Assembly (NCBI RefSeq): GCF_001577755.1
Contig: NZ_CP010776.1
Coordinates: 992,001-1,056,000, forward strand
Length of the DNA stretch: 64,000 nt
Reading direction: 5' to 3'
From: Rufibacter sp. DG15C
GTDB lineage: Bacteria > Bacteroidota > Bacteroidia > Cytophagales > Hymenobacteraceae
In this document: positions 58 through 62,406 of the stretch, piece after piece
Layout of the letters: each line of letters starts with the position of its first letter
Position numbering within the stretch: the first letter of the stretch is position 1
The notes under the pieces: model-generated
The model's input: only the letters and a program-made list of their open reading frames with translations
What the model was told of the DNA's origin: nothing
Databases searched by the model: none
Position numbers and translations under genes: made by a program

Positions 58-95
58 CGTTTTTGGGGTCTTTTCTGGAAATCAAGCCAAAAACG
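58..95. repeat. 38-bp palindromic element, copy 1
   Basis: First copy of the dispersed intergenic dyad. The consensus left arm is CGTTTTTGGCCTGTTTTC and the right arm is close to its reverse complement. Here the left arm is imperfect (GGGGTC for GGCCTG). It lies upstream of the helicase promoter. Confidence 0.8.
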
Positions 96-233
96 ATGCA
101 TAGACACTCGTAGGACCTCCGGACATTACGAGGTCTTGGGAGAACAATCTTTGCTTTCCTTCAATCAATCCATCATTCAATTGCCCAAAAGCGTATGCAA
201 TGGCAAGAGGAAAGACATCAAAATTCAAATCCG

Positions 234-241
234 TACCTTTG
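234..241 (+). promoter_or_regulatory. -7 promoter box of the DEAD-box helicase
   Basis: TACCTTTG is a perfect match to the Bacteroidota primary-sigma -7 box TAnnTTTG. Only 5 nt separate it from the ATG at 247, so transcription would begin at about the start codon. That predicts a leaderless mRNA, unless the helicase really starts further upstream. Confidence 0.6.
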
Positions 242-246
242 CAGTG

Positions 247-1743
247 ATGATAGAAGAAGAGAACAAGAATTCTGCCCCTGAGCAGGACGAGAATATAGAC
301 GCCCAGCAGGAGAATGCGCCGTCAGAAGGACTTTCCTTGGAGGGAGAAGAAACAGAAGAAACCTCAGAGCAAGAGGTAGAAGAGGAAGTACCCAGCTTCG
401 AGGATTTCAAGCTGAACAAGCAGTTGCTAAACGCCGTGGCCGAGCAGGGCTTCAACAAGCCTACCCCCGTGCAGGTACAGACCATTCCATTGGCCTTGGC
501 TGGTCATGATGTGATGGGCATCGCGCAGACGGGTACCGGTAAAACGGCCGCCTACACGTTGCCTTTGCTCATGAAAGTGAAATATGCGCAAGGCAAACAC
601 CCACGCGCGTTGATTCTAGCGCCTACCCGCGAGCTGGTCATACAGATAGAGGAGCACATCAAAAACCTGAGCGTGTACACAGACATCAGGACGGTGGGCA
701 TTTACGGCGGCGTAGGTCCTAAGCAACAGATTGAGCGCATTCAGGCCGGCGTAGATTTACTGGTTGCCACCCCAGGCCGCCTTATGGACATTTACCGCAA
801 AGGCGAATTGGTGCTCAAAGAACTCAAGACGCTGGTACTGGACGAAGCCGACAAGATGATGGACATGGGCTTTATGCCCCAGATTCGTCAGATTCTGGAG
901 ATTATTCCACGCAAGCGCCAGAACTTGCTGTTCTCGGCTACCATGCATGAGCGCGTGCACATTCTGTCTGAGGAGTTCCTGGAATTCCCGATGATAGTAG
1001 CTGTAACGCCGCAGGCCACGCCGGTAGAGACCGTGACGCAGGTCTTGTACCAAGTGCCTAACCTGCGCACCAAGATTGCTTTGCTGGAGCATCTGTTCCA
1101 GGACCGCGAGACATTCAACCGTGTCATGATTTTCACGCGCAGTAAAGCTAATGCAGACAACATTACCTCGTTCCTGGACCGCAAAGGCGATGGCGGCGTA
1201 CGCGTGGTGCACGGCAACAAAGGCCAGAACACCCGCATCAATGCCGTAGAAACCTTCAGGGCCGGCGAAGTTCGTTACCTGGTAGCCACAGACGTAGCCG
1301 CCCGCGGTATTGACATCAATGACGTGAGCCACGTGATTAATTTTGACGTGCCCATTATCTATGAAGACTACGTGCACCGCATTGGCCGCACCGGTAGAGC
1401 AGAACAGAAAGGCGCGTCTATCACCTTCGCGAATGAGGCCGAGATGCACCACATCCAGCGCATTGAGAAGCTGATTAAGATGCAGATTCCTATGGAGCCC
1501 ATGCCCGAGGAAGTGCACATATATGAAACGCCGTTTGAGGAGAAACAGGAAATTGACCGCGAGCTAGATCACCATAAACGTCAAGCCGACCCAGAATTCA
1601 AAGGCGCGTTCCATGAGAAGAAAGCCTTTACCCACGGTGAGAACATAGGCAAAGGCGCCAAAGTGAGAGACCTCAAGAAAGCCGGCTGGAAGAAAACCAA
1701 GTCAGGCGGAGCCAGCAAGCGCAAAAGCAGTAAGAGACGGTAA
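247..1743 (+). CDS. DEAD-box ATP-dependent RNA helicase
   Basis: ATP-dependent RNA helicase of the DEAD-box family (RhlE/DeaD-like), expected to remodel structured RNA in the cytoplasm, for example in ribosome assembly or mRNA decay. From the ATG at 247 the protein has 498 residues. It shows an acidic N-terminal extension, a Q-motif, Walker A AQTGTGKT at residues 93-100, DEAD at 199-202, SAT, and HRIGRTGRA from about residue 377. A Lys/Arg-rich tail follows, typical of Bacteroidota members. The open frame extends up to position 136, but that stretch lacks family similarity and contains the -7 box, so I prefer 247. Monocistronic, followed by a terminator at 1812-1850. Confidence 0.93.
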   Translation: MIEEENKNSAPEQDENIDAQQENAPSEGLSLEGEETEETSEQEVEEEVPSFEDFKLNKQLLNAVAEQGFNKPTPVQVQTIPLALAGHDVMGIAQTGTGKTAAYTLPLLMKVKYAQGKHPRALILAPTRELVIQIEEHIKNLSVYTDIRTVGIYGGVGPKQQIERIQAGVDLLVATPGRLMDIYRKGELVLKELKTLVLDEADKMMDMGFMPQIRQILEIIPRKRQNLLFSATMHERVHILSEEFLEFPMIVAVTPQATPVETVTQVLYQVPNLRTKIALLEHLFQDRETFNRVMIFTRSKANADNITSFLDRKGDGGVRVVHGNKGQNTRINAVETFRAGEVRYLVATDVAARGIDINDVSHVINFDVPIIYEDYVHRIGRTGRAEQKGASITFANEAEMHHIQRIEKLIKMQIPMEPMPEEVHIYETPFEEKQEIDRELDHHKRQADPEFKGAFHEKKAFTHGENIGKGAKVRDLKKAGWKKTKSGGASKRKSSKRR

Positions 1744-1768
1744 TTGATTGTTGATTGTCAATTGCTGA
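1742..1768 (+). repeat. ATTG-rich intergenic repeat, left flank
   Basis: The degenerate repeat contains TTGATTGTCAATTGCTGA. A related sequence lies in inverted orientation at 1868-1891, so the two bracket palindromic copy 2 and the helicase terminator. A similar stretch occurs at 7913-7975. Confidence 0.55.
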
Positions 1769-1774
1769 CACAAT

Positions 1775-1812
1775 CGTTTTTGGCCTATTTTGGTCAAAAC
1801 AGCCCAAAAATA
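1775..1812. repeat. 38-bp palindromic element, copy 2
   Basis: Copy with arms CGTTTTTGGCCTATTTT and AAAACAGCCCAAAAATAG, directly upstream of a separate terminator hairpin. Confidence 0.75.
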
Positions 1813-1850
1813 GAAAAGCCGCTTAAAGAAATCTAGGCGGCTTTTCTATT
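1812..1850. terminator. Intrinsic terminator between convergent genes
   Basis: Perfect 11-bp stem AGAAAAGCCGC / GCGGCTTTTCT with a short loop. A-tract and T-tract on opposite sides make it usable from both strands, serving the helicase gene and the membrane-protein gene at 1894-2355. Confidence 0.85.
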
Positions 1851-1867
1851 TATATTACTTTTCTGAA

Positions 1868-4100: not shown

Positions 4101-4139
4101 CGGTTTTTGGCCTGTTTTCCGGAAAAGAGGCCAAAAACG
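4101..4139. repeat. Palindromic element, copy 3 (39 bp)
   Basis: Near-perfect dyad, one base longer than usual (CGGTTTTTGGCC left, GGCCAAAAACG right), just upstream of the acyltransferase start. Confidence 0.85.
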
Positions 4140-5989: not shown

Positions 5990-6027
5990 CGTTTTTAGCC
6001 TGTTTTGCTGGAAACAGCCTAAAAACG
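5990..6027. repeat. 38-bp palindromic element, copy 4
   Basis: Arms CGTTTTTAGCCTGTTTT and AAACAGCCTAAAAACG, between the preceding terminator and the msbA-like promoter. Confidence 0.85.
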
Positions 6028-7985: not shown

Positions 7986-8023
7986 CGTTTTTAGCCTACT
8001 TTCCAGAAAAGAGGTCAAAAACA
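7986..8023. repeat. 38-bp palindromic element, copy 5
   Basis: Arms CGTTTTTAGCCTACTTTC and GAAAAGAGGTCAAAAACA, about 70 bp upstream of the next gene. Confidence 0.75.
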
Positions 8024-9142: not shown

Positions 9143-9180
9143 CATTTTTGGCCTCTTTTCACCAAAACAGGCCAAAAACA
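9143..9180. repeat. 38-bp palindromic element, copy 6
   Basis: Begins 3 bp after the gmhA stop codon. Arms CATTTTTGGCC and GGCCAAAAACA, with outermost bases CA/CA rather than CG/CG. Confidence 0.8.
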
Positions 9181-9913: not shown

Positions 9914-9951
9914 CGTTTTTAGCCTCCTTTCCAGAAAATAAGCCAAAAACG
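9914..9951. repeat. 38-bp palindromic element, copy 7
   Basis: Arms CGTTTTTAGCCTCCTTTC and GAAAATAAGCCAAAAACG, 9 bp after the lipoprotein stop. Confidence 0.8.
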
Positions 9952-11581: not shown

Positions 11582-11618
11582 TGTTTTTAAGCTATTTTCT
11601 AGAAATCAAGCCAAAACG
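11582..11618. repeat. Palindromic element, copy 8 (37 bp)
   Basis: Arms TGTTTTTAAGCTATTTTC and AATCAAGCCAAAACG, one A shorter in the right arm. Its right end overlaps the following terminator stem. Confidence 0.7.
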
Positions 11619-11820: not shown

Positions 11821-12471
11821 ATGAAAAAAGTATTACTAGTGGTTGCAGCAGTTTGCAGCTCTTATTTTGCCCAGGCACAAGACGGCGGTATCAAATTAGG
11901 CTTGAAAGCTGGTATCAACTACGCCAACATTACAGGAGATGACGCCTCTAGCGCAGATCCGAGGATTGGATTACACTTTGGCGCGTTTGCAGACTACGGC
12001 ATCAACGAGATGGTTTCTATTCGTCCAGAGATTATGTTTTCTGGCAAAGGCTTTAAAATGGAAGAGTCTGAGTCTAATATTTTTGAGGCAGGGGATAGAT
12101 ATTCCATGGAGATGACTCAACAGATAAACTACATAGATGTACCAGTACTTGCGCACATCAAACAAGGTAACTTCTTCTTGGAAGTGGGTCCTCAGGTTTC
12201 TTTCTTAATGAGTGCCAAAGGTACTGTGAAAGGAACATACAAGGCAGCTGACGGAACTTCTGAAAGCGAAGAGGACAGCGACTCTTCTACTGACGGATTA
12301 AGATCTGTAGGTTTGGGTTATGCCTTAGGTGCTGGCTATGAGCTTTCTAACGGAGTAGCCCTGAGCCTACGCTACAACGGTGACTTTACTGGCATTGCAG
12401 AAGAGGATGATGATGCAAAAATTAAAAATTCAGTAATCCAGCTTTCTGTAAGCTACCGTATCAGCAAATAA
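11821..12471 (+). CDS. Outer-membrane beta-barrel protein (PorT-like), tandem paralog 1
   Basis: Secreted barrel of 216 residues. It has a signal peptide MKKVLLVVAAVCSSYFAQA, the family start IKLGLKAGINYANITGD, and strand pairs ending in an aromatic-poor YRISK. This is the small outer-membrane beta-barrel/PorT-like family common in Bacteroidota, with no known substrate. It is the first of four consecutive paralogs (to 14939). They share GLKAGxNYSNLSGD, SIRPE or SIQPE and the closing LGLRYNGxxT pattern but differ in the loops. The gene has its own terminator, so the four may be separate transcripts. Confidence 0.85.
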   Translation: MKKVLLVVAAVCSSYFAQAQDGGIKLGLKAGINYANITGDDASSADPRIGLHFGAFADYGINEMVSIRPEIMFSGKGFKMEESESNIFEAGDRYSMEMTQQINYIDVPVLAHIKQGNFFLEVGPQVSFLMSAKGTVKGTYKAADGTSESEEDSDSSTDGLRSVGLGYALGAGYELSNGVALSLRYNGDFTGIAEEDDDAKIKNSVIQLSVSYRISK

Positions 12472-12477
12472 ACAGTC

Positions 12478-12519
12478 AAGCCCGATTTAACTGGTTATCA
12501 AATAGTTAAATCGGGCTTA
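12478..12519 (+). terminator. Intrinsic terminator after barrel paralog 1
   Basis: Stem AAGCCCGATTTAACT / AGTTAAATCGGGCTT followed by AATTATTT. Confidence 0.8.
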
Positions 12520-12615
12520 ATTATTTAAAAAATATCACCTTTCTACTAATTTTATATATATAATTTATATATTTAGTCAAATTAGGACGTAACCCATCAC
12601 TTAATCTGTACAATT

Positions 12616-13179
12616 ATGAAAAAACTAGTATTCATTTTAGCAGCGTTGTTCACCTTCTCATTTGCCGCACAGGCCCAAGAAGGAATTAAATTAGGCCTTA
12701 AAGCCGGAGTAAATTACAGCAATCTGTCTGGCGACGGCACAGATGAGTTAGACTCTCAGTTTGGTTTCCACGTGGGTGGTTTCTTAGACTATGGCATTTC
12801 TGAGATGGTGTCTATCCGTCCAGAGTTGTTGTTTTCTAGCAAAGGATTTGCAGTGAGCGGTGACGATGATGATGACTTCAACCAAAGCCTACGCTACATT
12901 GATCTTCCTATCATGGTAAGAGTAAATGCTGGAGGCTTGTATTTTGAAGGCGGCCCTACCTTGGGTTACTTGGTATCTGTTAGCGAAGGCGAGACAGACG
13001 ACTACAAGAAATTTGAATTCGGCTATGCCGCTGGCTTGGGTTACCAAATGGCTAGCGGATTAGGCATTGGTCTGCGTTACCAAGGTGGCTTGACCAGCAT
13101 CATTGACAATGATGACGCTGATAAAATCACCAACTCTGTTTTCCAGTTGGGACTTAGCTATACATTGGGTACCAGATAA
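12616..13179 (+). CDS. Outer-membrane beta-barrel protein (PorT-like), tandem paralog 2
   Basis: Shortest of the four tandem barrels, 187 residues, with signal peptide MKKLVFILAALFTFSFAAQA. It keeps GIKLGLKAGVNYSNLSGD and the SIRPELLFSSKGF strand, but the extracellular loops between middle strands are reduced. Acidic DDDDD in one loop and ten or more Asp residues overall suggest surface exposure or cation binding. That is inference. Ends at a strong terminator. Confidence 0.85.
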   Translation: MKKLVFILAALFTFSFAAQAQEGIKLGLKAGVNYSNLSGDGTDELDSQFGFHVGGFLDYGISEMVSIRPELLFSSKGFAVSGDDDDDFNQSLRYIDLPIMVRVNAGGLYFEGGPTLGYLVSVSEGETDDYKKFEFGYAAGLGYQMASGLGIGLRYQGGLTSIIDNDDADKITNSVFQLGLSYTLGTR

Positions 13180-13201
13180 TATTCTAAGTACCATTCCATC
13201 T

Positions 13202-13234
13202 AAAGAGGCCTGTCTACCACAGGCCTCTTTTTTT
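13202..13234 (+). terminator. Intrinsic terminator after barrel paralog 2
   Basis: Stem AAAGAGGCCTGT / ACAGGCCTCTTT followed by a T-run. Confidence 0.85.
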
Positions 13235-13476
13235 ATGCCTTTTTGTGCGCTCATGAATCACAATCTGAGACTCAATCACTTACCCACGTAACTTTATAAT
13301 CACTTTTGAGGTCCCTCTTAGATTATGTTAAGTATTATACTTTTTCCAGAGTGACGTTTTAAGAAAGGCGCTGAATACTTAAACAATATATACAACCTTT
13401 TCCGTTATAGTCGTATAACACCCACAATTACGGGTAGGCTAAACAGTCTACTTACTTTTTACAAACCAACAAGATT

Positions 13477-14127
13477 ATGAAAAAGATTGTATTATTTGTA
13501 GCTGCCGCACTTTCCTTCTCTTTCGCGAACGCTCAATCTGGACCACGCATTGGCTTAAAAGCTGGTATGACGTACTCTAACCTTTCTGGTGACTTAGAAA
13601 ACGAAGACATTTATGATAACAAGTTTGGGTTTGTAGGCGGCTTGACGGCCAACTTTGACCTTTCCGGTGATGGGTTCCTATCACTTCAGCCAGAATTGCT
13701 GTATTCGCAAAAAGGCTACCAATACAATGATGAGAAGTTCACGGTAGGTGGCACAGATTACAAAATCAAAGGCGACGTGAACTACAACTACTTGGATTTG
13801 CCGGTGCTTTTGAGAGTAAACGCAGGTGGATTGTTCTTTGAGGCCGGCCCACAGGTGTCTTACCTACTTTCTGTAAAAGACAACAGTGAGTTTAAGGTAA
13901 ATGATGAAAGCTATGAGTCAACTGAGAGATATGACAAAGATGATTTCTCTGAGATTGAGATTGGCTATGCTGCCGGCGTTGGATATCAGTTAGACAACGG
14001 CTTAAGCTTAGGCGTAAGATACAACGGTGGTATCAATGCCTTGGCCAAAGAAGACAATGACGAATTGACCAACGCGCGTCATTCAGTCGTGATGGCTACC
14101 ATTGGCTTTACCTTGCCACGTAAATAA
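13477..14127 (+). CDS. Outer-membrane beta-barrel protein (PorT-like), tandem paralog 3
   Basis: Barrel of 216 residues, signal peptide MKKIVLFVAAALSFSFANA. Closest by eye to paralog 4: both carry SNLSGDL, a DNKFGF- or NNKLGF-type strand, a FNYLDLPVL- or FNYLDVPVL-like strand, FEAGPQ followed by SYL, and a terminal DARHS- or NARHSV-like segment. This suggests that paralogs 3 and 4 arose by the more recent duplication. Preceded by a 240-bp gap without another gene. Confidence 0.85.
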   Translation: MKKIVLFVAAALSFSFANAQSGPRIGLKAGMTYSNLSGDLENEDIYDNKFGFVGGLTANFDLSGDGFLSLQPELLYSQKGYQYNDEKFTVGGTDYKIKGDVNYNYLDLPVLLRVNAGGLFFEAGPQVSYLLSVKDNSEFKVNDESYESTERYDKDDFSEIEIGYAAGVGYQLDNGLSLGVRYNGGINALAKEDNDELTNARHSVVMATIGFTLPRK

Positions 14128-14153
14128 GACATATTAGAAAAACTGTAATTTTT

Positions 14154-14190
14154 CACACAGAAAGCCTTGCTATGCGGGGCTTTCTGTGTG
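14154..14190 (+). terminator. Intrinsic terminator after barrel paralog 3
   Basis: Stem CACACAGAAAGCC / GGCTTTCTGTGTG with a loop of about 11 nt. Confidence 0.75.
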
Positions 14191-14288
14191 TCATAGCCTT
14201 TGCATTGCAGCGTTCCTTTAAATCTGGCATAAGATTTGAAACGTACGTTGACAAGTAAATGGAACTAATTCCCCAAAAACTGACACCC

Positions 14289-14939
14289 ATGAAAAAAGCA
14301 TTTATCCTTTTAGTTGCAGTAGTAGGATCTTTTGCAGCTCAAGCCCAAACAACTATTGGTATCAAAGCAGGCGCTAATTATTCTAACCTTTCTGGTGACC
14401 TGAAAGACGAAAGTCGCTTCAATAACAAACTAGGCTTTCATGGCGGCTTATACGCCAACATCCCGGTGATTAGTGACTTGTTGTCTATCCAGCCAGAGTT
14501 TCTGTACTCTAATAAAGGCTTCAAGTATGATGACAAAGTGACCACCTCATTGTTTGGCACTGAGACTCGCCAGGAAGGCTCTGCCAATTTCAACTACTTA
14601 GACGTGCCAGTATTGGCCAGAGTAAAGGCCGCTGGCTTCTTCTTTGAGGCGGGCCCACAGTTGTCTTACCTGATCAACGTGAATGACAAGACCAAAACCT
14701 ATGTGGACGGCGAATTGCAGGACAGATCTACCAGCGAGAAAAGCAAAGAAGGCTACTCAGACTTTGAGATAGGCTACGCCGCCGGTTTAGGATTCGCCAC
14801 TTCGGGTGGGGTGAGCCTGGGCTTGCGCTACAACGGCGCCTTCACAGACTTATCTGATGACTCTCCTGCCCGCGGCGATTTCAAAGATGCCCGTCACTCT
14901 GTCTTCCAACTGTCTGTAGGCTTCCCGCTGAGCAAGTAA
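14289..14939 (+). CDS. Outer-membrane beta-barrel protein (PorT-like), tandem paralog 4
   Basis: Barrel of 216 residues. The frame is open from 14259, but a normal signal peptide (MKKAFILLVAVVGSFAAQA) begins at the ATG at 14289, as in the other three paralogs. It shares SNLSGDLKDESRFNNKLGFHGG, FNYLDVPVLARV and FEAGPQLSYL with paralog 3. It is followed by a terminator and palindromic copy 9. The function of the whole array is unknown. Candidates are nutrient uptake, adhesion or phage-variable surface proteins. Confidence 0.85.
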   Translation: MKKAFILLVAVVGSFAAQAQTTIGIKAGANYSNLSGDLKDESRFNNKLGFHGGLYANIPVISDLLSIQPEFLYSNKGFKYDDKVTTSLFGTETRQEGSANFNYLDVPVLARVKAAGFFFEAGPQLSYLINVNDKTKTYVDGELQDRSTSEKSKEGYSDFEIGYAAGLGFATSGGVSLGLRYNGAFTDLSDDSPARGDFKDARHSVFQLSVGFPLSK

Positions 14940-15017: not shown

Positions 15018-15055
15018 TATTTTTGGCCTGTTTTCTGTAAAACAGGCCAAAAACG
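15018..15055. repeat. 38-bp palindromic element, copy 9
   Basis: Near-perfect arms TATTTTTGGCCTGTTTTC and AAAACAGGCCAAAAACG, directly abutting the terminator T-run. Confidence 0.85.
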
Positions 15056-17324: not shown

Positions 17325-17380
17325 ACAGCATCCCGTTTTTAGGCTGTTTCTGAGAAATCAGGCCAAAAACGGGATGCTGT
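17325..17380. repeat. Palindromic element, copy 10, with extended arms
   Basis: The 38-bp core is 17334-17371. Here the dyad continues outward through ACAGCATCC and its complement GGATGCTGT, giving a 56-bp palindrome. It lies between the divergent plsY promoter and the 3' end of the 1722-residue gene. Confidence 0.85.
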
Positions 17381-23527: not shown

Positions 23528-23565
23528 TGTTTTTGGCTTATTTTCTGAAAAATAAGCCAAAAACG
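23528..23565. repeat. 38-bp palindromic element, copy 11
   Basis: Arms TGTTTTTGGCTTATTTTC and AAAATAAGCCAAAAACG. The change CTG to TTA in the left arm is matched by TAA in the right arm. Just upstream of the prmA promoter. Confidence 0.85.
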
Positions 23566-23611
23566 ATTTGCAGCCCGCTTTCCTGTGAACAATTCAAAGA
23601 CACTGTAACAG

Positions 23612-23645
23612 AAGAGCCCGCCCCTTTTGCAGGGGGCGGGCTCTT
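23612..23645. terminator. Intrinsic terminator of the THX gene
   Basis: Stem AAGAGCCCGCCCC / GGGGCGGGCTCTT with a short loop, directly 3' of the THX stop on the minus strand. Confidence 0.8.
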
Positions 23646-23664
23646 TCTTGCTTAAAACAGGTGC

Positions 23665-23817
23665 TTACTCAGCGGTGGCAACTGGGGCTTTGGGCTCTTT
23701 CTTGCCGCCTAGCTTGGCTTCTTTGGTCAATTCGTTTTTGGCCTTTTTAGGACGGCTGTTGCCAAATGAGCCATTGCTGATCTTTCCTTTTTTGCTTTTG
23801 ATATCTCCTCTTCCCAT
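23665..23817 (-). CDS. 30S ribosomal protein THX
   Basis: Fifty-residue basic protein MGRGDIKSKKGKISNGSFGN... with a Lys/Ala/Pro tail (EPKAPVATAE). The N-terminal MGRGD-KxKKGKIxxGSxG block is the signature of the small Thx family of the 30S head, which is widespread in Bacteroidota. The ATG is at 23817 and the stop at 23665. The gene is monocistronic, has its own strong terminator, and is divergent from uvrA. A segment at about 23731-23750 resembles the left arm of the palindromic element, but it simply encodes RPKKAKN. Confidence 0.92.
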   Translation of the reverse strand: MGRGDIKSKKGKISNGSFGNSRPKKAKNELTKEAKLGGKKEPKAPVATAE

Positions 23818-23925
23818 GATGGTAGTGTTTAATTATAAGTGAAACATGATGTAACAAGTACTCTCTTATGAGAAACTGGTCTAGAAAGTTACAAAGTACG
23901 CAGAATAAGCACAAGTTTCTGGTTT

Positions 23926-23963
23926 CGTTTTTGGCTTGATTTCTAGAAAACAGACCAAAAACG
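23926..23963. repeat. 38-bp palindromic element, copy 12
   Basis: Arms CGTTTTTGGCTTGATTTC and GAAAACAGACCAAAAACG, 40 bp upstream of the uvrA -7 box. Confidence 0.85.
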
Positions 23964-24002
23964 CAGACAAGCGCGACTCTTCTAAATGCCAATGCGTATG
24001 TC

Positions 24003-24010
24003 TACCTTTG
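24003..24010 (+). promoter_or_regulatory. -7 promoter box of uvrA
   Basis: TACCTTTG, exact match, 82 nt before the ATG at 24093, giving a leader of about 75 nt. Confidence 0.6.
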
Positions 24011-24092
24011 CGGTTTAGTCTCAGGCTGTTTAATTGCCGGTAAACAGAATTATTCTGCCGCGGTTCATGTTCTAGAGAGGCTATAAATTCTT

Positions 24093-26915
24093 ATGACAGA
24101 AGATCTCATCCAAGACTCAGAAATAGACGCACTAGATGCCCGCGAGAACATCATCATCAAGCGGGCCCGCGTTCATAATTTAAAGAACCTGAGCGTGGCC
24201 CTGCCGCGCAACCAGTTCATTGTGGTGACCGGCCTTTCGGGGTCTGGCAAATCCTCCCTGGCGTTTGACACCCTCTACGCCGAAGGCCAGCGCATGTACG
24301 TGGAGAGCCTTAGCTCCTACGCCCGCCAGTTCCTAGGCCGCATGGACAAGCCCGACGTGGACTACATTAGGGGCATCAGCCCGGCCATTGCCATTGAGCA
24401 GAAGGTAAGCATTAGAAACAACCGCTCCACTGTGGGCACCAGCACCGAGATTTACGACTACCTCAAGCTGTTGTACGCCCGCATTGGCAAGACCATTTCG
24501 CCGGTGTCTGGCCAAGAGGTGAAGAAGGACACCGTGTCCAGCGTGGTGGATAATCTCATGACGCTGCCCAACGACACGCGCATCATGATTCTGGCCCCAT
24601 TGCAGCAGACCAAAGACCGCAAGCTCAGCAAAGAACTGGACCTGCTCCTACAGAAAGGCTATTCCAGGGTTTTATTGAACGGCGAGGCCTTCTTTATTGA
24701 GGAACTCATTGGCGATGACAAGCCAGAACCGAAGGGCGATGTCTTTGTACTTATTGACCGCACCGTCATCAAGCAAGACGAGGAGGACGAAAGCCTGCAG
24801 ATGCGCCTGGCGGACTCGGTGCAGACGGCGTTCTATGAAGGCCATGACGAATGCCACGTTCGCATAGGTGACGAGACCCGCGTTTTCTCCAACCGCTTTG
24901 AGCTGGACGGAATGGTGTTTGAGGAGCCCAACGTCAATTTCTTCAGCTTCAATAACCCCTACGGCGCCTGCCAGACCTGCGAAGGCTGGGGAAGCGTCCT
25001 CGGCATTGACCCAGACCTGGTCATCCCAGACAAAAGCCTCACGGTCTTTGAAGGAGCCATCGCGCCCTGGCGCACCGAAAAGCAGAACGAGTGGCTACAG
25101 CCCTTGGTCAAAAACGGCATCCGGTTTGATTTCCCTATTCATAGACCTTACAATGAGCTCACCGAGGAACAGCAGGAACTCCTATGGAAGGGGAACAAGT
25201 ACTTCGGGGGCCTGACAGATTTCTTCAAGCATATCTCGGGGCAGACGCACAAGATTCAGTACCGCGTATTGTTGTCCCGCTACCGCGGCCGCACGGTTTG
25301 TCCAGACTGTAAGGGCTCACGCCTGCGCAAAGACGCCGGCTACGTGAAGGTAGATGGCAAGAGCATCACAGACTTGGTCTTGATGCCCGTGACCAAAACG
25401 CTGGAGTTCTTCCAAACCCTGCAGCTAAGCGAACACGACCAAGCCATTGCCGATAGACTGGTGACCGAAGTCACCAACCGCTTAAGCTATTTGACGCGTG
25501 TAGGTTTGGGTTACCTAACCTTGAATAGACTATCTAATACCTTGTCGGGTGGCGAGAGCCAGCGCATCAACCTGGCCACGTCTTTGGGTAGTGCTTTGGT
25601 GGGTTCCATGTACATTCTGGATGAGCCCAGCATTGGCCTGCACCCTAAAGATGCCGACCAACTCATTGGCGTACTCCGCTCCCTGCAAGAAATGGGCAAT
25701 ACCGTGATTGTGGTGGAGCACGAAGAAGGCATGATGGAAGTAGCCGACCAGGTTTTGGACATTGGCCCGGAGGCCGGTTCTGGCGGCGGAAATCTCATGT
25801 TCCAAGGCACGTTCCAAGACTTGCTGAAGAGCGATACCTACACGGGTCGTTACTTGAGTGGACGCATGGAAGTACCGGTTCCGGCGCAACGTCGTCCTTG
25901 GCGCAACAGCGTGGAGGTGCACGGCGCACGGGAGAACAACCTCAAAAACGTAAGCGCGAAGTTCCCGCTGAACGTGATGACGGTGGTGACGGGCGTGAGC
26001 GGCTCGGGCAAGTCTACTTTAATAAAAAAGATTCTGGCGCCGGCGCTTATCAAATCCTTGGGCGGGCACGCAGATGCCACGGGTAAGTTTGACAAACTCT
26101 CTGGCGACATGAACCGCGTGGCCCACGTGGAGTTTGTGGACCAGAACCCCATTGGTAAGTCGTCGCGTTCCAACCCGGTGACCTACGTGAAGGCCTATGA
26201 CGCCATTCGGACCATGTACGCCGACCAAGCCTTGGCCAAAGCGCGCGGGTTCAAGCCATCGCACTTCTCCTTCAACATTGAAGGTGGCCGCTGCGAGGTC
26301 TGCCAAGGAGAAGGCCAGGTGAAGATTGAGATGCAATTCATGGCCGATATCTACCTGACCTGCGAGGCCTGCGAAGGCCAGAAGTTCAAGCAAGACATCC
26401 TGGATATCACCTACCGCGAGCGCAACATCTCTCAGGTCTTGGACATGACCATTGACGACAGCTTGATTTTCTTTGAAGACCAGCCTAAGATTTTGGAGAA
26501 ACTGAAGCCGTTGCAAGACGTGGGCTTAGGTTACATTCGTCTAGGTCAGTCCAGCAATACCTTGTCGGGTGGCGAGGCGCAACGGGTAAAACTGGCGTCT
26601 TTCCTGACCAAAGGCGCCACGCCGCATAACGGCAACATCCTGTTCATCTTTGATGAGCCCAGCACGGGTCTGCACTTCCATGACATCAGCAAGCTCTTAA
26701 CCGCCCTGAATGCTCTGGTAGAAAACGGCAACACCGTCCTCATCATTGAGCACAACATGGACATCATTAAATGCGCAGACTGGATTATTGACCTGGGCCC
26801 CGAAGGCGGTACCAACGGCGGTCACCTCCTCTTTGAAGGCATCCCAGAGGATTTGGCCAAATTGTCTGAGGAAAACCACACGGCTAAGTATTTGAAGCCG
26901 AAGTTGATTTCTTAA
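24093..26915 (+). CDS. uvrA: Excinuclease ABC subunit A
   Basis: DNA-damage recognition ATPase of nucleotide excision repair; works with UvrB and UvrC. Length of 940 residues is normal. Two ABC modules are intact: Walker A GLSGSGKSS near residue 47 and GVSGSGKST near 634, signatures LSGGESQRINLAT and LSGGEAQRVKLA. Zinc clusters are visible (CQTCEGWG, CPDCKGSRL, CEVCQGEGQ with CEACEGQKF). Monocistronic with a -7 box at 24003-24010, followed by palindromic copy 13 and a strong terminator. No LexA-type operator is recognisable. Confidence 0.97.
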   Translation: MTEDLIQDSEIDALDARENIIIKRARVHNLKNLSVALPRNQFIVVTGLSGSGKSSLAFDTLYAEGQRMYVESLSSYARQFLGRMDKPDVDYIRGISPAIAIEQKVSIRNNRSTVGTSTEIYDYLKLLYARIGKTISPVSGQEVKKDTVSSVVDNLMTLPNDTRIMILAPLQQTKDRKLSKELDLLLQKGYSRVLLNGEAFFIEELIGDDKPEPKGDVFVLIDRTVIKQDEEDESLQMRLADSVQTAFYEGHDECHVRIGDETRVFSNRFELDGMVFEEPNVNFFSFNNPYGACQTCEGWGSVLGIDPDLVIPDKSLTVFEGAIAPWRTEKQNEWLQPLVKNGIRFDFPIHRPYNELTEEQQELLWKGNKYFGGLTDFFKHISGQTHKIQYRVLLSRYRGRTVCPDCKGSRLRKDAGYVKVDGKSITDLVLMPVTKTLEFFQTLQLSEHDQAIADRLVTEVTNRLSYLTRVGLGYLTLNRLSNTLSGGESQRINLATSLGSALVGSMYILDEPSIGLHPKDADQLIGVLRSLQEMGNTVIVVEHEEGMMEVADQVLDIGPEAGSGGGNLMFQGTFQDLLKSDTYTGRYLSGRMEVPVPAQRRPWRNSVEVHGARENNLKNVSAKFPLNVMTVVTGVSGSGKSTLIKKILAPALIKSLGGHADATGKFDKLSGDMNRVAHVEFVDQNPIGKSSRSNPVTYVKAYDAIRTMYADQALAKARGFKPSHFSFNIEGGRCEVCQGEGQVKIEMQFMADIYLTCEACEGQKFKQDILDITYRERNISQVLDMTIDDSLIFFEDQPKILEKLKPLQDVGLGYIRLGQSSNTLSGGEAQRVKLASFLTKGATPHNGNILFIFDEPSTGLHFHDISKLLTALNALVENGNTVLIIEHNMDIIKCADWIIDLGPEGGTNGGHLLFEGIPEDLAKLSEENHTAKYLKPKLIS

Positions 26916-26917
26916 TT

Positions 26918-26955
26918 CGTTTTCGGGCTGATTTCTGGAAAACAGCCCGAAAACG
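26918..26955. repeat. 38-bp palindromic element, copy 13 (compensated variant)
   Basis: Perfectly paired variant: left arm CGTTTTCGGGCTG and right arm CAGCCCGAAAACG. Relative to the consensus both arms are changed so that pairing is kept. Starts 2 bp after the uvrA stop. Confidence 0.9.
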
Positions 26956-26964
26956 AAATTTCTT

Positions 26965-27010
26965 AAAAGGCCTGTGATGCTATAAAAGCGTCACAGGCCT
27001 TTTCTTTTTT
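26965..27010. terminator. Intrinsic terminator of uvrA
   Basis: Stem AAAAGGCCTGTGA / TCACAGGCCTTTT followed by CTTTTTT, 10 bp after palindromic copy 13. Confidence 0.9.
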
Positions 27011-27038
27011 AATGCAATTCAGATATTTATACCTAGAA

Positions 27039-27046
27039 TAGACTTG
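27039..27046 (+). promoter_or_regulatory. Possible -7 box of the HEPN-like gene
   Basis: TAGACTTG, one mismatch to TAnnTTTG, 17 nt upstream of the ATG at 27064. Confidence 0.35.
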
Positions 27047-27063
27047 CGCCTTAGCCTACTGTT

Positions 27064-27693: not shown

Positions 27694-27804
27694 ATCCAAA
27701 TTTCCTTTCAAAAAAGGTTTGTCTTTATAGTGATTGTTGTAAAATCAAGTGTATAAAGGAGACTTCCTGCCAAATCACTAACTTAGCACTTGAAGAGAGC
27801 AGGC

Positions 27805-27842
27805 CGTTTTTGGCCTGATTTCCAGAAAAGAACCTAAAAACG
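27805..27842. repeat. 38-bp palindromic element, copy 14
   Basis: Arms CGTTTTTGGCCTGATTTC and GAAAAGAACCTAAAAACG. Its 3' edge overlaps a second inverted repeat, AACGCCTTTG / CAAAGAGGCGTT at about 27839-27863, just before tpiA. Confidence 0.8.
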
Positions 27843-27883
27843 CCTTTGCGCAAAGAGGCGTTTCCATTCACACATAAGAAACT

Positions 27884-28648: not shown

Positions 28649-28651
28649 GCC

Positions 28652-28685: not shown

Positions 28686-28698
28686 AACTAGTAATAAA

Positions 28699-28729: not shown

Positions 28730-28731
28730 TT

Positions 28732-28769
28732 CGTTTTTAGGCTGGTTCTTAGAAATCAGGACAAAAACG
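28732..28769. repeat. 38-bp palindromic element, copy 15
   Basis: Arms CGTTTTTAGGCTGGTTC and AATCAGGACAAAAACG, directly after the terminator. Confidence 0.75.
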
Positions 28770-30764: not shown

Positions 30765-30802
30765 CGTTTTTGGCCTGAATTCTAGAAAACAGCCCAAAAA
30801 CG
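30765..30802. repeat. 38-bp palindromic element, copy 16
   Basis: Arms CGTTTTTGGCCTGAATTC and GAAAACAGCCCAAAAACG. Pairing extends outward by CTTC/GAAG (30761-30806). Confidence 0.85.
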
Positions 30803-32548: not shown

Positions 32549-32586
32549 CGTTTTTGACCTGTTTCCCAGAAAAGAAGCTAAAAACA
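32549..32586. repeat. 38-bp palindromic element, copy 17
   Basis: Arms CGTTTTTGACCTGTTTC and GAAAAGAAGCTAAAAACA, in the divergent gap between the POT and haemoglobin genes. Confidence 0.75.
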
Positions 32587-33284: not shown

Positions 33285-33322
33285 CGTTTTTGGCTTGAAT
33301 TTCAGAAAACAGCCCAAAAGCG
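33285..33322. repeat. 38-bp palindromic element, copy 18
   Basis: Arms CGTTTTTGGCTTGAATTTC and GAAAACAGCCCAAAAGCG. Confidence 0.8.
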
Positions 33323-34887: not shown

Positions 34888-34925
34888 TGTTTTTCGGCTA
34901 TTTTTGAGGAATTAGCCGGAAAACA
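34888..34925. repeat. 38-bp palindromic element, copy 19 (compensated variant)
   Basis: Left arm TGTTTTTCGGCT and right arm AGCCGGAAAACA. Both the ends (TG/CA) and the core (CGG/CCG) differ from the consensus in complementary fashion. Confidence 0.85.
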
Positions 34926-36744: not shown

Positions 36745-37092
36745 ACACTTCGTTTTTGGCCTGTTTTCATAAAAACAGGCCAAAAACGAAGACTCCTTAA
36801 CAGGCTTCCAAATTTTCATAAGTCTGCACTTTAAGCATTAGGGGATAAACCGTTAACCAACACTGCCTAATGCATTTTTATGCGTAGCCAGCCCTTTGTG
36901 AAAAATCCGTATTAATTACCAATTAATCGAGTTTTATACGTAGCAACATCCATTCTTATATTTTGTAAACTAGCAGTCACAAAACAAGCCTATTTTTCTT
37001 CTTCTCTACGTGCCTGCCTTCTCACTGAAAAAGCATGATTAGACGCTAGAAACGCAGGTAAAGCAAGCTATACCAAATTTAATTGAAAGGCA
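36745..37092. other. Gene-free stretch of 348 bp
   Basis: Holds palindromic copy 20 at its start and a spaced inverted repeat (GCATTAGG at 36835-36842, CCTAATGC at 36867-36874, then TTTTTA) that could be a weak nth terminator. Upstream of the sigma factor it is AT-rich, with TATATTTTG near 36958 as a possible promoter. No gene seen. Confidence 0.5.
36751..36788. repeat. 38-bp palindromic element, copy 20
   Basis: Near-perfect arms CGTTTTTGGCCTGTTTT and AAAACAGGCCAAAAACG, 6 bp after the nth stop. Confidence 0.9.
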
Positions 37093-42556: not shown

Positions 42557-42594
42557 CGTTTTTGGCCTGTTTTCTAGAAATTAGGCCAAAAACG
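42557..42594. repeat. 38-bp palindromic element, copy 21
   Basis: Arms CGTTTTTGGCCTGTTTTC and AATTAGGCCAAAAACG, just upstream of the glycosyltransferase start. Confidence 0.85.
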
Positions 42595-44396: not shown

Positions 44397-44434
44397 CATT
44401 TTTGGCCTGTTTTCTGAAAAACAGGCCAAAAACG
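44397..44434. repeat. 38-bp palindromic element, copy 22
   Basis: Near-perfect arms CATTTTTGGCCTGTTTTC and AAAACAGGCCAAAAACG, 4 bp after the barrel stop. Confidence 0.9.
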
Positions 44435-47302: not shown

Positions 47303-47608
47303 TTAGGAAACAACCGCTTCCTTGATTTTTTTGCTGTTTTTGATCTTAGCTACAAAGGTCTTAGACGGTTTGAAGCTAGGGATAAAGTGCTCATCAATGA
47401 TGATAGACGTGTTCTTAGAGATGTTACGTGCTACCTTCTTGGCGCGCTTCTTATTCACAAAGCTTCCAAAGCCACGCACATAAATGTTATTGCCATCGGC
47501 CATAGAGTCCTTAACCACTTTGAAGAACGCCTCTACGGTTGCCGTAACATCAGATTTCTCAATCCCTGTCTTGTCCGCAATTTCTGATATAACTTCTGCT
47601 TTAGTCAC
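47303..47608 (-). CDS. HU-family DNA-binding protein
   Basis: Nucleoid protein of 101 residues starting at GTG (47608). It is a dimeric HU/IHF fold with MTKAEVISEIADKTGIEKSDVTATVEAFFKVVKDSM, the FGSFVNKKRAKKVARNISKNTSI region, and a beta-arm that includes PSFKPSKTF. A Bacteroidota-type HU/IHF paralog with a C-terminal extension. Given the dispersed palindromes in this genome it is a plausible binder of bent DNA, but that is speculation. Promoter box at 47693-47700, leader of about 80 nt. Confidence 0.95.
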   Translation of the reverse strand: MTKAEVISEIADKTGIEKSDVTATVEAFFKVVKDSMADGNNIYVRGFGSFVNKKRAKKVARNISKNTSIIIDEHFIPSFKPSKTFVAKIKNSKKIKEAVVS

Positions 47609-51375: not shown

Positions 51376-51413
51376 CGTTTTTGGCCTGTTTTTCAGAAAG
51401 TAGGCCAAAAACG
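51376..51413. repeat. 38-bp palindromic element, copy 23
   Basis: Arms CGTTTTTGGCCTGTTTTTC and GAAAGTAGGCCAAAAACG, 4 bp after the gldD stop. Confidence 0.85.
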
Positions 51414-53042: not shown

Positions 53043-53081
53043 CGATTTTGGCCTGTTTTCTAAGAAATACGCCAAAATGCG
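53043..53081. repeat. Palindromic element, copy 24 (39 bp, degenerate)
   Basis: CGATTTTGGCCTGTTTTC left and GAAATACGCCAAAATGCG right. The most degenerate full copy; both outer arms are altered. Confidence 0.65.
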
Positions 53082-54156: not shown

Positions 54157-54194
54157 CGTTTTTGGCCTGTTTTCTGAGAAACAAGTTAAAAACG
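54157..54194. repeat. 38-bp palindromic element, copy 25
   Basis: Arms CGTTTTTGGCCTGTTTTC and GAAACAAGTTAAAAACG, the right arm decayed. Confidence 0.75.
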
Positions 54195-55641: not shown

Positions 55642-55679
55642 CGTTTTCGGTCTCTTTTTCAGGAAATAGGCCAAAAACG
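55642..55679. repeat. 38-bp palindromic element, copy 26
   Basis: Arms CGTTTTCGGTCTCTTTTTC and GGAAATAGGCCAAAAACG, between the phosphoesterase gene and the small-RNA candidate. Confidence 0.75.
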
Positions 55680-55820: not shown

Positions 55821-55992
55821 TTAGTGAGTAGATATGGATATATACGAAACGCCAAATATTTTGGTATGCTTTCTAATGCCAATTTCTAACGGAAGACCCA
55901 ACTATTTTCGCCTTTCTGCCTAGGCATGGCAAAGAGGAAAACTAGCTTGGCAAACTAGCCTGATCCCATTAGCCTCCCTCGTGTCTTTTCTG

Positions 55993-56055
55993 TAATTTTA
56001 CAGAGCGGCAGAGCGGGCGTTTTTATGGTGTCTTCCAGAAAACAGGCCAAAAACG
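55993..56055 (+). repeat. Duplicated leader unit, copy A, with palindromic element copy 27
   Basis: Unit of GTAATTTTACAGAGCGG..GGCG followed by the palindromic element (core 56018-56055, arms CGTTTTTATGGTGTCTTC and AAACAGGCCAAAAACG). A near copy is at 56493-56558. TAATTTTA could be a -7 box, which would place this element inside the transcribed leader of the PhnA-like gene. Confidence 0.65.
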
Positions 56056-56431: not shown

Positions 56432-56492
56432 GTTCTGGACCTTGCAGCTTTGTTATTCTTCAGGGCCTGCGGTAGCCCCACTCACCACTTTT

Positions 56493-56558
56493 TAGTAACT
56501 TTACAGAGCGGCTTGGCTGGCGTTTTTGGGCTATTTTCCAGAAAACAGGCTAAAAACG
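56493..56558 (+). repeat. Duplicated leader unit, copy B, with palindromic element copy 28
   Basis: GTAACTTTACAGAGCGGC.. then the palindrome at 56521-56558 (arms CGTTTTTGGGCTATTTTC and AAAACAGGCTAAAAACG). It shares 17 of 18 bases before the element with copy A at 55993, and lies upstream of recG. Confidence 0.7.
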
Positions 56559-60830: not shown

Positions 60831-60840
60831 CGTTTTTGGC
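60831..60840 (+). repeat. Half copy of the palindromic element
   Basis: CGTTTTTGGC, the left arm only, 5 bp after the stop codon of the previous gene. The other arm is missing. Confidence 0.5.
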
Positions 60841-60885
60841 AAACCTTTTCCATTTATTCGCCTAGAGTTCATCGTTTCTCTTGTC

Positions 60886-61519
60886 ATGCAGGACCTCACC
60901 TTCCCTTTAGAATTCACCTATAAAGCACCTGCGTTGTCCAATCAAATCACGGTGAAAGATGCACACGGGCAGATAGTCTTTTTTGTGAAGCAGGTGCATT
61001 CAGATGTTTTCTCAGAATCTTCTTTGCTCAGCATAGATCCTTTTCTAGACGAGGCCCTTGTATACAAAGATGCCTCAGAAAAGGAAATTCTTTATTCTAT
61101 TAGAGCCCGCTCCTCAAAGGAATTTTATGCGGCCTTTATGTTTACAGACCATAACAACCTGCTGTTTGGGCACATTGGGAGGGTGCACTGGGATTACTTA
61201 TTAAGAGCGCATTATGACGTTCTTGACCAGTATATACGGCCAGTGTTTACCATCAAAGAAGCCGAGTTCATGGTTAAGGTTACAGGACACCATCTTAGGC
61301 AAGATTCCTTTTATAAGTCTTTTAACGGGCTATTTCTTCAACCCAAGCTACTACGTCACCAAAGCAAACGGTAGTCATCTGGCCACCCTCACTAAGGAGA
61401 AGTCTTTTTGGAGTAGTAAGTTCACCTTAACCAAAGAAGGAACGTGCACGCCCCATGAGCAAGAATGACTCTTGCTGAGTATCATACTCTTGGTACTTCA
61501 AGAAAGACTCCGAGGATAA
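60886..61519 (+). pseudogene. Decayed LURP-one-like gene (frameshift and nonsense)
   Basis: Broken paralog of the intact gene at 61717. The frame from the ATG at 60886 aligns with it up to about residue 132, then fails. The +1 frame continues the similarity (DTILGKIPFISLLTGYFFNPSY). A single extra base at about 61282 explains the shift. A TGA at 61466-61468 stands where the paralog has CGA (Arg), and reading through it the match goes on to a final TAA at 61517. Two independent lesions make inactivation likely, but a sequencing error cannot be excluded for the first. Confidence 0.85.
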
Positions 61520-61571
61520 ACCTTCTTAGTAGCAACTATCAGGTGGCTTGCATGTCACAAAACAGGTTGGG

Positions 61572-61609
61572 CGTTTTTTGCCTGTTTTACTCAAAACGAG
61601 TCAAAAACG
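61572..61609. repeat. 38-bp palindromic element, copy 29
   Basis: Arms CGTTTTTTGCCTGTTTT and AAAACGAGTCAAAAACG. Confidence 0.7.
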
Positions 61610-61716
61610 ACATCGTCTGTAAATGAGCGGGAAGTGTTATTTTCTTGGTCTGGAATTATTTGCCATCTTACTTCTTCGCAAACAATTCTATACCCGCACT
61701 ACACCCACTACCCTAC

Positions 61717-62313
61717 ATGCAAGACCTCAATTTCCCCCTAGACTTTCAATTCAAAATCTCTACGCTGGCCAATGACTTCACGGTGAAAGACGCCAACGGC
61801 CAGACGGTCAGCTACGTCAAACAGAAGCTCTTCAAGTTTGTAGAGGAGGTCACCGTTTTTAAAGACGAATCACAGGCAGAGACGCTGTACAACATCAAGG
61901 CCAACCAGTGGATTGATTTTTCGGCAGCTTACATTTTCACTGACACCTATGGACAAGAGATAGGCCGCGTGGCCCGCAAAGGTTGGGCCTCCATGTGGAA
62001 AGCCCATTACGAGGTATTTGACCAATACCAGCAGCAAGATTTTACCATAAGAGAAGGCAATGCCTGGATACGCGTAGGCGATGCGTTGATGGGCCAGATT
62101 CCGCTGTTGGGTATTTTCACGGGTTACTTCTTCAACCCAAGCTACACGGTCACCCGACCAGACGGTACGCTCATAGCCACGCTTAAAAAGCAGAAAAGCT
62201 TCTTTGGCAGAAGATTCACGGTCACCAAAGAAGCTGAATTAGAAGCCGGCGAACAGGAGCGCATCATGCTAAGCTTGGTTATGATGATTCTTCTGGAAAG
62301 ACGCAGAGGATAA
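61717..62313 (+). CDS. LURP-one-related (tubby-like) protein
   Basis: Protein of 198 residues from the ATG at 61717, where the conserved MQDLNFPLDF begins. An upstream TTG at 61645 is unlikely. Pattern DFTVKDANGQTVSYVKQ, TLYNIKANQ, YIFTDTYGQEIGRVARK and YFFNPSYTVTRPDG is that of LURP-one/scramblase-like beta-barrels (phospholipid-binding or scramblase related). Ends with a short hydrophobic tail (IMLSLVMMILLERRR). Role in bacteria unknown. A decayed tandem copy precedes it. Confidence 0.8.
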   Translation: MQDLNFPLDFQFKISTLANDFTVKDANGQTVSYVKQKLFKFVEEVTVFKDESQAETLYNIKANQWIDFSAAYIFTDTYGQEIGRVARKGWASMWKAHYEVFDQYQQQDFTIREGNAWIRVGDALMGQIPLLGIFTGYFFNPSYTVTRPDGTLIATLKKQKSFFGRRFTVTKEAELEAGEQERIMLSLVMMILLERRRG

Positions 62314-62339
62314 TCTGTATACCAGAGGATTTATAAAAC

Positions 62340-62369
62340 AGAAAGCCCCGCTACTTGGCGGGGCTTTCT
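62340..62369. terminator. Intrinsic terminator between convergent genes
   Basis: Stem AGAAAGCCCCGC / GCGGGGCTTTCT (one mismatch inside) with a small loop. It joins directly to palindromic copy 30. Confidence 0.85.
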
Positions 62370-62406
62370 GTTTTTAGGCTGTTTTAGCCAAAACAGGCCA
62401 AAAACG
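62369..62406. repeat. 38-bp palindromic element, copy 30
   Basis: Arms TGTTTTTAGGCTGTTTT and AAAACAGGCCAAAAACG, with a TAGCC centre. Last full copy in the window. Confidence 0.8.

Follow-up and report, generated by a model that had tools for sequence, protein, structure and literature searches.

In the bacterium Rufibacter sp. DG15C, a palindromic DNA element of 38 bp keeps about the same intergenic places as in the other sampled Rufibacter species while its spelling drifts, and this lineage-specific consensus at conserved positions is the main point of the analysis reported here, one that goes beyond what the view of a single window offers. By the window we mean the whole stretch of 64,000 nucleotides that was analysed, in which a first-pass annotation had recognised the element. 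At even chances, we read it as the dyad site of a putative genus-specific dimeric DNA-binding protein, which would sit at the boundaries of transcription units, act there in an architectural or insulating manner, and co-evolve with its sites.

A scan of the window with a symmetric position weight matrix (PWM) recovered the 30 full copies previously counted, each scoring 33.2–60.5 bits, against 5.4 bits for the next-best site and 3.4 bits for the top score in 20 order-1 Markov shuffles of the window. That next-best site, at 23733..23770, had been listed as a half copy; it scores near chance, lies inside a small called ORF, and has been dropped from the count. The nearly constant length of 38 bp also held, as 29 of the 30 copies align ungapped over 38 columns. 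The exception is a 37-bp variant lacking one A (11582..11618, 39.6 bits), which has an orthologue in the sister genome G017 and was omitted from the alignment of 29.

The copies occur in several settings. Convergent gaps hold those at 1775..1812 (46.1 bits; the gap also holds a copy in all 10 species that could be compared), 15018..15055 (53.8 bits), 33285..33322 (46.9 bits), 62369..62406 (48.5 bits), and 44397..44434 (57.7 bits), the last located 4 bp past a stop codon and 2–6 bp past it in eight other species. Divergent gaps hold those at 32549..32586 (49.0 bits), 4102..4139 (56.4 bits), whose G017 copy is identical, and 23926..23963 (55.6 bits), for which the distances to the two starts are 104–111 and 129–132 bp in the six other species compared. 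Others closely follow a stop, such as 9143..9180 (3 bp past it, 49.0 bits), 9914..9951 (8 bp, 51.7 bits), 26918..26955 (2 bp past the uvrA stop, 51.2 bits), 36751..36788 (6 bp, 57.5 bits), and 51376..51413 (4 bp, 56.2 bits). The copy at 5990..6027 (51.3 bits) precedes the called downstream start at 6155 by 127 bp, and by 125–129 bp in 11 further species, while that at 34888..34925 (33.2 bits) precedes its start by 142 bp, and by 140–149 bp in nine of ten other species, with 248 bp in the remaining one. Two copies are enclosed in longer inverted repeats, with outer arms of 8 bp (7986..8023, 48.2 bits) or 11 bp (17334..17371, 52.5 bits), and two belong to a duplicated stretch, the repeat D11 (56018..56055, 46.4 bits, and 56521..56558, 58.4 bits). 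Further copies are found at 58..95 (52.1 bits, with an orthologue in G017), 27805..27842 (53.8 bits), 30765..30802 (55.8 bits), 42557..42594 (60.5 bits, the top score of the window), 53043..53080 (36.3 bits, with degenerate ends), 54157..54194 (51.8 bits), 55642..55679 (47.5 bits), and 61572..61609 (39.4 bits).

The element is not confined to the window. The 261 copies detected in 644 kb extrapolate to about 1,680 in the genome of DG15C, and relatives of the element are present in 16 of 16 Rufibacter genomes, whereas a relaxed pattern did not find it in 193 genomes from elsewhere in the order. Some of the counts given below come from a set of 270 copies in which nine are counted twice, because sample L038 overlaps a 264-kb block; the set of 261 repeats the key counts without this overlap. 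Among the 20-kb samples, the two with the lowest G+C content have the fewest copies (2 and 4), and viral contigs gave no match to one exact pattern of the element. The open-access papers listed by our literature searches gave no account of this element, and no bacterium is known to us in which the majority of transcription-unit borders bear one specific site.

Regarding its anatomy, the element is fully symmetric, with ends YCG..CGR, and may be viewed as a site on double-stranded DNA whose dyad consists of two 19-bp half-sites in inverted orientation (CGTTTTTGGCCTGTTTTCY in DG15C). The spacing is rigid: when each half is required to reach at least 13 bits, 234 pairs span 38 bp, three span 39 bp, and no other span between 17 and 77 bp occurs. 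The central dinucleotide is TG or CA in 157 of the 261 copies, a flexible step that suits bending. In the 270 copies of DG15C (nine counted twice), the pairing between symmetric columns does not exceed what independence would give, apart from a weak covariation at pair 7–32, and the palindrome is therefore mainly two half-sites; in the 29 aligned copies of the window, two pair measures slightly exceed shuffles (26 and 13 of 500). In 11 other species, covariation is seen at pairs 6–33 (z 2.9), 7–32 (z 6.2), and 8–31 (z 2.2), and six of these species also show it weakly at pair 10–29 (z 2.1), so the half-sites are largely, not fully, independent. Symmetric half-sites at a fixed spacing, each near the consensus independently of the other apart from positions 6–8 in the other species, are features of a site for a dimeric protein. 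Strong single half-sites, of at least 20 bits, number eight, against none in the reversed sequence, and seven of them are intergenic. Two 39-bp elements that the scan had missed supply four of these eight.

The placement of the element follows the gaps between genes. Among gaps of 100–399 bp, 124 hold no copy, 160 hold one, and two hold two, where a Poisson distribution expects 32 with two or more; at most one copy is thus present in 284 of 286. Neighbouring gaps separated by genes shorter than 600 bp show no repulsion (15 pairs with both occupied, 20 with one, 11 with none), and for this reason the one-copy rule is a rule per gap. Longer gaps, of at least 400 bp, hold two or more copies in 11 of 61 cases, and some of them may hide missed genes. 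Convergent gaps of 100–399 bp are the type most often occupied (35 of 43), whereas just 29 of 63 divergent gaps of that size hold a copy. A terminator-like hairpin is also present in 11 of 23 element-holding convergent gaps. In 37 of 171 cases the stretch from element to start contains a promoter-like TAnnTTTG box, against 7.5 in shuffles, and the box is as frequent before element-free genes (49 of 174, within 250 bp). The distances proposed in the first-pass annotation are broadly confirmed, with a peak at 0–10 bp after stop codons and a wider one, at about 60–150 bp, before start codons. The absence of the element from genes fared less evenly: under improved gene calling it holds for the centres of all 30 window copies, the one at 4102 having fallen in the start of an ORF only under an earlier calling with a far TTG start, and it fails in the genome sample, where the centres of 8 of the 261 copies fall within called genes. 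Of these eight, three or more are coding copies, read in frame, that recur across the genus. One gene contains two copies at a distance of 384 bp, an arrangement for which a boundary role alone does not account.

The comparison of orthologous gaps revealed that presence and position of the copies are common to G017 and 11 further species. For the gaps around uvrA, compared with 12 of the 15 other genomes of the genus, 118 are occupied both in DG15C and in the other species, 13 in DG15C only, 16 in the other species only, and 92 in neither. The distance to the downstream start changes by at most 10 bp in 46 of 72 comparisons (median 5 bp) and the distance to the stop by a median of 27 bp (n = 106), with the qualification that in gaps with several elements the copy nearest in spacing was chosen, which favours conservation. 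In G017, no empty site occurs among 62 aligned sites, the alignment leaving 43 of 105 DG15C elements unspanned. Leaving out nine of the 62, the 53 ungapped pairs are identical at 723 of 742 core positions, against 852 of 1060 inner positions outside the core (p = 1.6e-31), and the flanks of the elements at 79%; the T and A tracts are under constraint.

At these shared places the consensus differs between lineages, as seen in 13 genomes, with DG15C, G017, and G060 nearly agreeing. When pairs between DG15C and G017 are set aside, elements at different loci within one species resemble each other more (0.699) than do elements at the same locus in two species (0.644), and the similarity of elements that differ in both locus and species is 0.623. 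Six species have a fuzzy consensus, of 26–32 bits versus 46 in DG15C, and strong constraint is accordingly not shown in every species. Dialects also largely account for the strict-match counts, which vary from 2 to 1134 per genome among the 16 Rufibacter genomes. A recent expansion in two species, which these counts might evoke, was rejected, as PWMs re-estimated for each species give a similar density in the sampled regions, 0.37–0.66 per kb. The intragenic copies share their codon position across species, in a comparison that lacks a DG15C row at the first BatA-like element, owing to a later start of the locus. In genome G048, two substitutions within such copies, V to H and R to S, follow the local dialect and alter otherwise conserved residues; overall, conserved residues within intragenic elements of G048 change no more than elsewhere (2 of 23 versus 40 of 549).

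A mobile family of the REP or MITE kind, transposing still or until recently, was among the original suggestions, and dispersed, short, palindromic sequences in very many copies, with such different strict counts among the 16 genomes, do evoke one. ERIC, BIME, and RPE are likewise dispersed intergenic imperfect palindromes, occasionally found in genes, and as usually described they are set apart from the present element by size, symmetry, and positional conservation. REP elements carry an unpaired GTAG or CGTC tag at one end of a stem-loop, and those of Escherichia coli are targets of gyrase (PMC3733652). With these RAYT-associated repeats the element shares shortness, palindromy, numbers of up to thousands per genome, and a mostly intergenic location with some copies in genes, and it differs in being fully symmetric over 38 bp, with no GTAG/CGTC tag, no general covariation, and positions that are shared across the genus and not variable between relatives. 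A search for the transposase that accompanies REPs of the GTAG type (RAYT, Y1_Tnp, PF01797) found no match in the DG15C genome and matches in five of 14 control genomes. Together with the shared positions, the lack of empty sites in G017, the near absence of second copies from gaps of 100–399 bp, and strict counts that are largely a matter of dialect, this largely refutes mobility, which we regard as scarcely credible. An ancient mobile expansion in the ancestor of the genus, since frozen and domesticated as protein-binding sites, would be compatible with the dyad-site explanation and is a possibility to which we give rather less than even chances. A large set of sites would predate the diversification of the genus, since the element was not found in the other genera sampled and its positions are shared in the 12 species compared; however, neither an autonomous relative nor a target duplication was found, and two inverted half-sites in L052, considered as the ends of a transposon, turned out to be a match within topoisomerase-like coding sequence (as read from the translation) and a degenerate copy.

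The proposal of an RNA element, namely a hairpin in the transcript that would stabilise it or bring it to an end, agrees with the palindrome, with the frequent occupation of convergent gaps, and with the complementary outer arms, 4 bp or longer, of 34 of 270 copies (two counted twice), many leading into T-rich DNA. Yet the pairing in DG15C equals independence apart from the weak signal at 7–32, covariation elsewhere is limited to pairs 6–8 with 31–33 and weakly 10–29, and Rfam has no family at gathering score within the window. The element does not look selected as a hairpin, and this reading is very improbable. As had been argued from the start, it is not a terminator by itself: the T-run is 5′ and the A-run 3′, TTTTT occurs in 5.6% of the 25-base right flanks, and tandem gaps mostly have the order stop–terminator–element (22, versus 5 with stop–element–terminator). 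Moreover, divergent gaps are occupied too. A self-recognition signal spread by molecular drive, whose sites aid the uptake or recombination of kin DNA, is likewise unlikely, if less so. One account describes the DNA uptake sequences (DUS) of Neisseriaceae as present in thousands of copies, with dialects around a conserved core and a proposed co-evolution with the protein that binds them (PMC3630211). The element is reminiscent of this in its copy number, its dialects, its mostly non-coding location, and its scarcity in the samples of low G+C content, and the two residue changes in G048 point the same way. It differs from DUS, on the other hand, in being a 38-bp dyad and not a single 10–12-mer, and in following a per-gap rule without repulsion at the kb scale. 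Single half-sites of at least 8 bits are barely enriched (62 coding and 34 intergenic, versus 84 in the reversed whole sequence), so that the over-representation of a short motif also in genes is not observed, and a search of the 16 Rufibacter genomes gave no PilB/PilT-type ATPase (PF00437) above its curated threshold. For each of the REP/RAYT, uptake-signal, and terminator readings, a defining feature was tested and not found.

The dyad-site reading agrees with the earlier suggestion of a functional protein-binding element, which the fixed spacing, the largely independent half-sites, and the shared positions support, the binder being putative. We infer from these features that the protein is dimeric; its binding places would number about 1,680, usually a single one per transcription-unit boundary, each bound site being probably an architectural or insulating site of the nucleoid. 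There it may bend or pin the intervening DNA, which in tandem gaps would mostly be the stretch from the terminator of one unit to the start of the next, and could limit the spread of supercoiling or read-through. Weighing against this reading are the pairs that covary in other species, the divergent gaps left empty, the long gaps with two or more copies, the two copies within one gene, the fuzzy consensus of six species, the unremarkable rate of residue changes in G048, the terminator-like hairpins of convergent gaps, and a promoter box that is as frequent where no element is present. More broadly, and somewhat short of an even bet, Rufibacter may possess a sequence-specific boundary system of about 1,700 fixed dyad sites, with a dedicated architectural protein whose drifting specificity drags the sites along; that this drift would at times run against protein-coding constraint is a suggestion we hold just as tentatively. 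HU binds DNA with little sequence specificity. As candidate binders, HU (one strong match per genome of the genus, the same in relatives), HU-HIG (a strong match in G048 only, hence no genus-wide gene), and type IIA topoisomerase (two subunits in each of 29 genomes) were rejected, the searches giving no genus-specific gene. In E. coli, HU has been described as an insulator of neighbouring transcription units that constrains the supercoils generated by transcription (PMC4992867). The role proposed here would be alike, whereas the element is a specific sequence and the HU of Rufibacter is a single gene common to relatives. If a protein reads these sites, Rufibacter would offer a natural insulator-like system, and how a DNA-binding protein with many sites changes its specificity becomes testable, because very many sites have changed their consensus at shared places.

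Finally, the copies at 23528..23565 (51.8 bits) and 28732..28769 (45.1 bits) adjoin the breakpoints of an inversion relative to G017 (23566–28769). Recombination between the two elements was considered and rejected, as the break seems to lie beside the elements and not in them: in G017 both are found at one junction, about 69 bp apart, and the aligned ends at the other junction are 54 bp apart.

The 38-bp palindrome CGTTTTTGGCCTGTTTTCYRGAAAACAGGCCAAAAACG is indeed present in the 30 copies counted by the first-pass annotation, which score 33-60 bits, against 5.4 for the next-best site of the window and 3.4 for the best site in 20 shuffles of it; the half copy reported at 23733 scores near chance level and is not upheld. 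The strict form CGTTTTT-N23..25-AAAAACG has 687 matches in the DG15C genome (4.14 Mb, one contig) and none when the pattern is reversed, and a PWM scan gave 261 elements in 644 kb, which extrapolates to about 1,680 per genome. L042 and L051, the samples of lowest G+C (0.44) among 32 samples of 20 kb from this genome, also hold the fewest elements (2 and 4), as expected of acquired DNA.

The covariance-model search that had been proposed gave matches in all 16 Rufibacter genomes, with up to 150 candidates scored per genome, and the exact perfect-palindrome pattern matches two contigs of the named collection, both from this genus. Genomes from other genera in the family, 134 in all, contain 0-2 matches each to the strict form (reversed control, 0-9). 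A relaxed pattern, which recovers a fraction of the copies and not many where the species consensus is fuzzy, has 395 matches in the DG15C genome and none in 193 further, non-Rufibacter genomes of the order. Seven genomes from five other genera were scanned over 40-60 kb each; the DG15C PWM scores there at best 5.1 bits, and the palindromes listed from these genomes are, by eye, ordinary terminator-like ones with no common family. Searches of open-access literature showed no description of the element, which does not prove its absence in print.

Regarding placement, genes were called with a home-made hexamer method that misses some genes and misplaces some starts. The 286 gaps of 100-399 bp comprise 124 without an element, 160 with one and 2 with two, where a Poisson expectation would give about 32 with two or more; gaps of at least 400 bp hold two or more in 11 of 61 cases, and those under 50 bp hold an element in 2 of 72. 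Repulsion is not seen between gaps that adjoin the same gene of less than 600 bp (both occupied in 15 cases, one in 20, none in 11), and the limit therefore applies per gap rather than per kilobase. Occupancy at 100-399 bp is 35/43 for convergent, 98/180 for tandem and 29/63 for divergent gaps. When a terminator-like hairpin serves the upstream gene of a tandem gap, the order is stop-terminator-element in 22 cases and stop-element-terminator in 5, the corresponding convergent counts being 20 and 17. Of 171 segments running from an element to the start, 37 contain a promoter-like TAnnTTTG box (7.5 in shuffles); among genes without an element, 49 of 174 upstream stretches of 250 bp do. Given the order with respect to terminators and these boxes, the element is mostly located between transcription units.

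These places are shared across species. The sister species G017 has about 82% nucleotide identity to DG15C, and 62 of 105 elements could be judged against it: 61 have a counterpart in the same position, and the remaining one has a 37-bp form there. In 53 ungapped pairs the core positions are 97.4% identical, versus 80.4% for the other inner positions and 79% for the flanks. A comparison with 12 of the other 15 Rufibacter genomes, covering 35-80 kb around uvrA, shows gaps occupied in both genomes in 118 cases and in neither in 92, the discordant ones being DG15C only in 13 and the other only in 16; the p value calculated for this agreement disregards kinship among the species. The element-to-start distance is 125-129 bp in 11 species at one gap and 140-149 bp in 9 of 10 at another; overall, it changes by at most 10 bp in 46 of 72 comparisons, versus 35 of 106 for the distance to the stop. 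The segment 23566-28769 of the window, which contains uvrA, is inverted relative to its neighbours when compared with all 12 other Rufibacter regions examined, and its breakpoints adjoin elements at 23528 and 28732.

The claim that the element is strictly intergenic holds for most copies and fails for 8 of 261, which are centred in called genes. A BatA-like gene carries two elements 384 bp apart, a pair also found in the other 15 genus genomes at a spacing of 384-387 bp, and a DUF4175 gene carries one in 15 of 16, G042 having no match of at least 16 bits. These intragenic elements occupy matching positions across the genus (loci L131-L146), and the three are read in two frames as different peptides. 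Two residues are altered by the G048 dialect change G13T14 to C13A14: a V that all 15 other species have becomes H, and an R shared by 13 of the 14 other rows becomes S; the overall change rate at conserved residues within intragenic elements of G048 is not raised (2/23 vs 40/549), and the two replacements are therefore an illustration, not statistics.

The spacing of the halves is rigid: 234 half-site pairs span 38 bp, 3 span 39, and none occurs at the remaining spans of 17-77 bp. T4-6, T12, T16, A23-24 and A33-35 are invariant in 29 window copies, the two T-tracts of one half are about 10.5 bp apart with G/C in between, and 157 of 261 copies have TG or CA at their centre. A selected hairpin would be expected to have covarying arms, and such covariation is absent in 270 DG15C copies, save for a weak signal at pair 7-32. 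Among 355 copies of 11 other species it occurs at pairs 6-33 (z 2.9), 7-32 (z 6.2) and 8-31 (z 2.2), with a weak signal at 10-29 in six species (z 2.1) and none at the remaining stem pairs; we read the outer pairs as matched half-site types, not as a stem. About 12% of copies (34/270, two counted twice) are embedded in a longer inverted repeat with a run of at least 4 bp, and as these repeats often extend into T-rich DNA, some elements have apparently become part of terminators.

The consensus itself drifts, as seen from 20-46 copies in 35-80 kb per species, scored with species PWMs that were iterated from that of DG15C and may miss strongly divergent copies. It is nearly identical in DG15C, G017 and G060, reads CGTTTTCGGcCTCATTTC in G048, CGTTTAGGGGCTGTTTTT in G045 and TGTTTTGGGCCTGTTTTC in G012, and is fuzzy (26-32 bits) in six species. 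Similarity is higher between loci within a species (0.699) than between copies of the same locus in two species (0.644) or between different loci of different species (0.623). G045 has two half-site types, which can be combined in a single element: its hybrids join a TTTTTGGCC-type half to a half of the TTTAGGGGC or TTTAGCGGC type, a pattern that suggests either an ongoing dialect switch or two specificities.

That the places are shared, the dyad rigid, the half-sites mostly independent and the consensus common but drifting points to a putative sequence-specific dimeric DNA-binding protein, which would bind the elements and whose specificity would co-evolve with them. Their position between units suggests a role in architecture or insulation; the idea resembles the insulation of transcription units proposed for HU in E. 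coli (PMC4992867). The HU search gave one strong match per genus genome, the same as in relatives, and each of 29 genomes has two type IIA topoisomerase subunits; neither search gave a genus-specific gene. The conserved HU gene (PF00216) lies at 47303-47608 of the window, minus strand. A strong HU-HIG match occurs only in G048 among the 16 Rufibacter genomes (G048:C1:1936694-1937047, E 6.5e-25), the genome that also has a strongly different dialect.

Two known families invite comparison. DNA uptake sequences of Neisseriaceae also have dialects (PMC3630211), but single half-sites of the element are barely enriched, and no PilB/PilT-type ATPase exceeded the cut-off in the 16 genus genomes. REP families (PMC3733652) are similar in size and copy number; however, the element has neither their tag nor their mobility, and the DG15C genome has no match to their transposase (Y1_Tnp/RAYT), which speaks against the mobile REP-like family suggested earlier.

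Within the window, an 86-bp repeat, D11 (55970-56055 and 56473-56558, 78% identical), contains an element plus its upstream flank, and its two copies flank a small gene, as if a stretch had been duplicated. At 11821-14939, adjacent genes of about 190-230 aa with the common repeats D6-D10 are apparently tandem paralogues.
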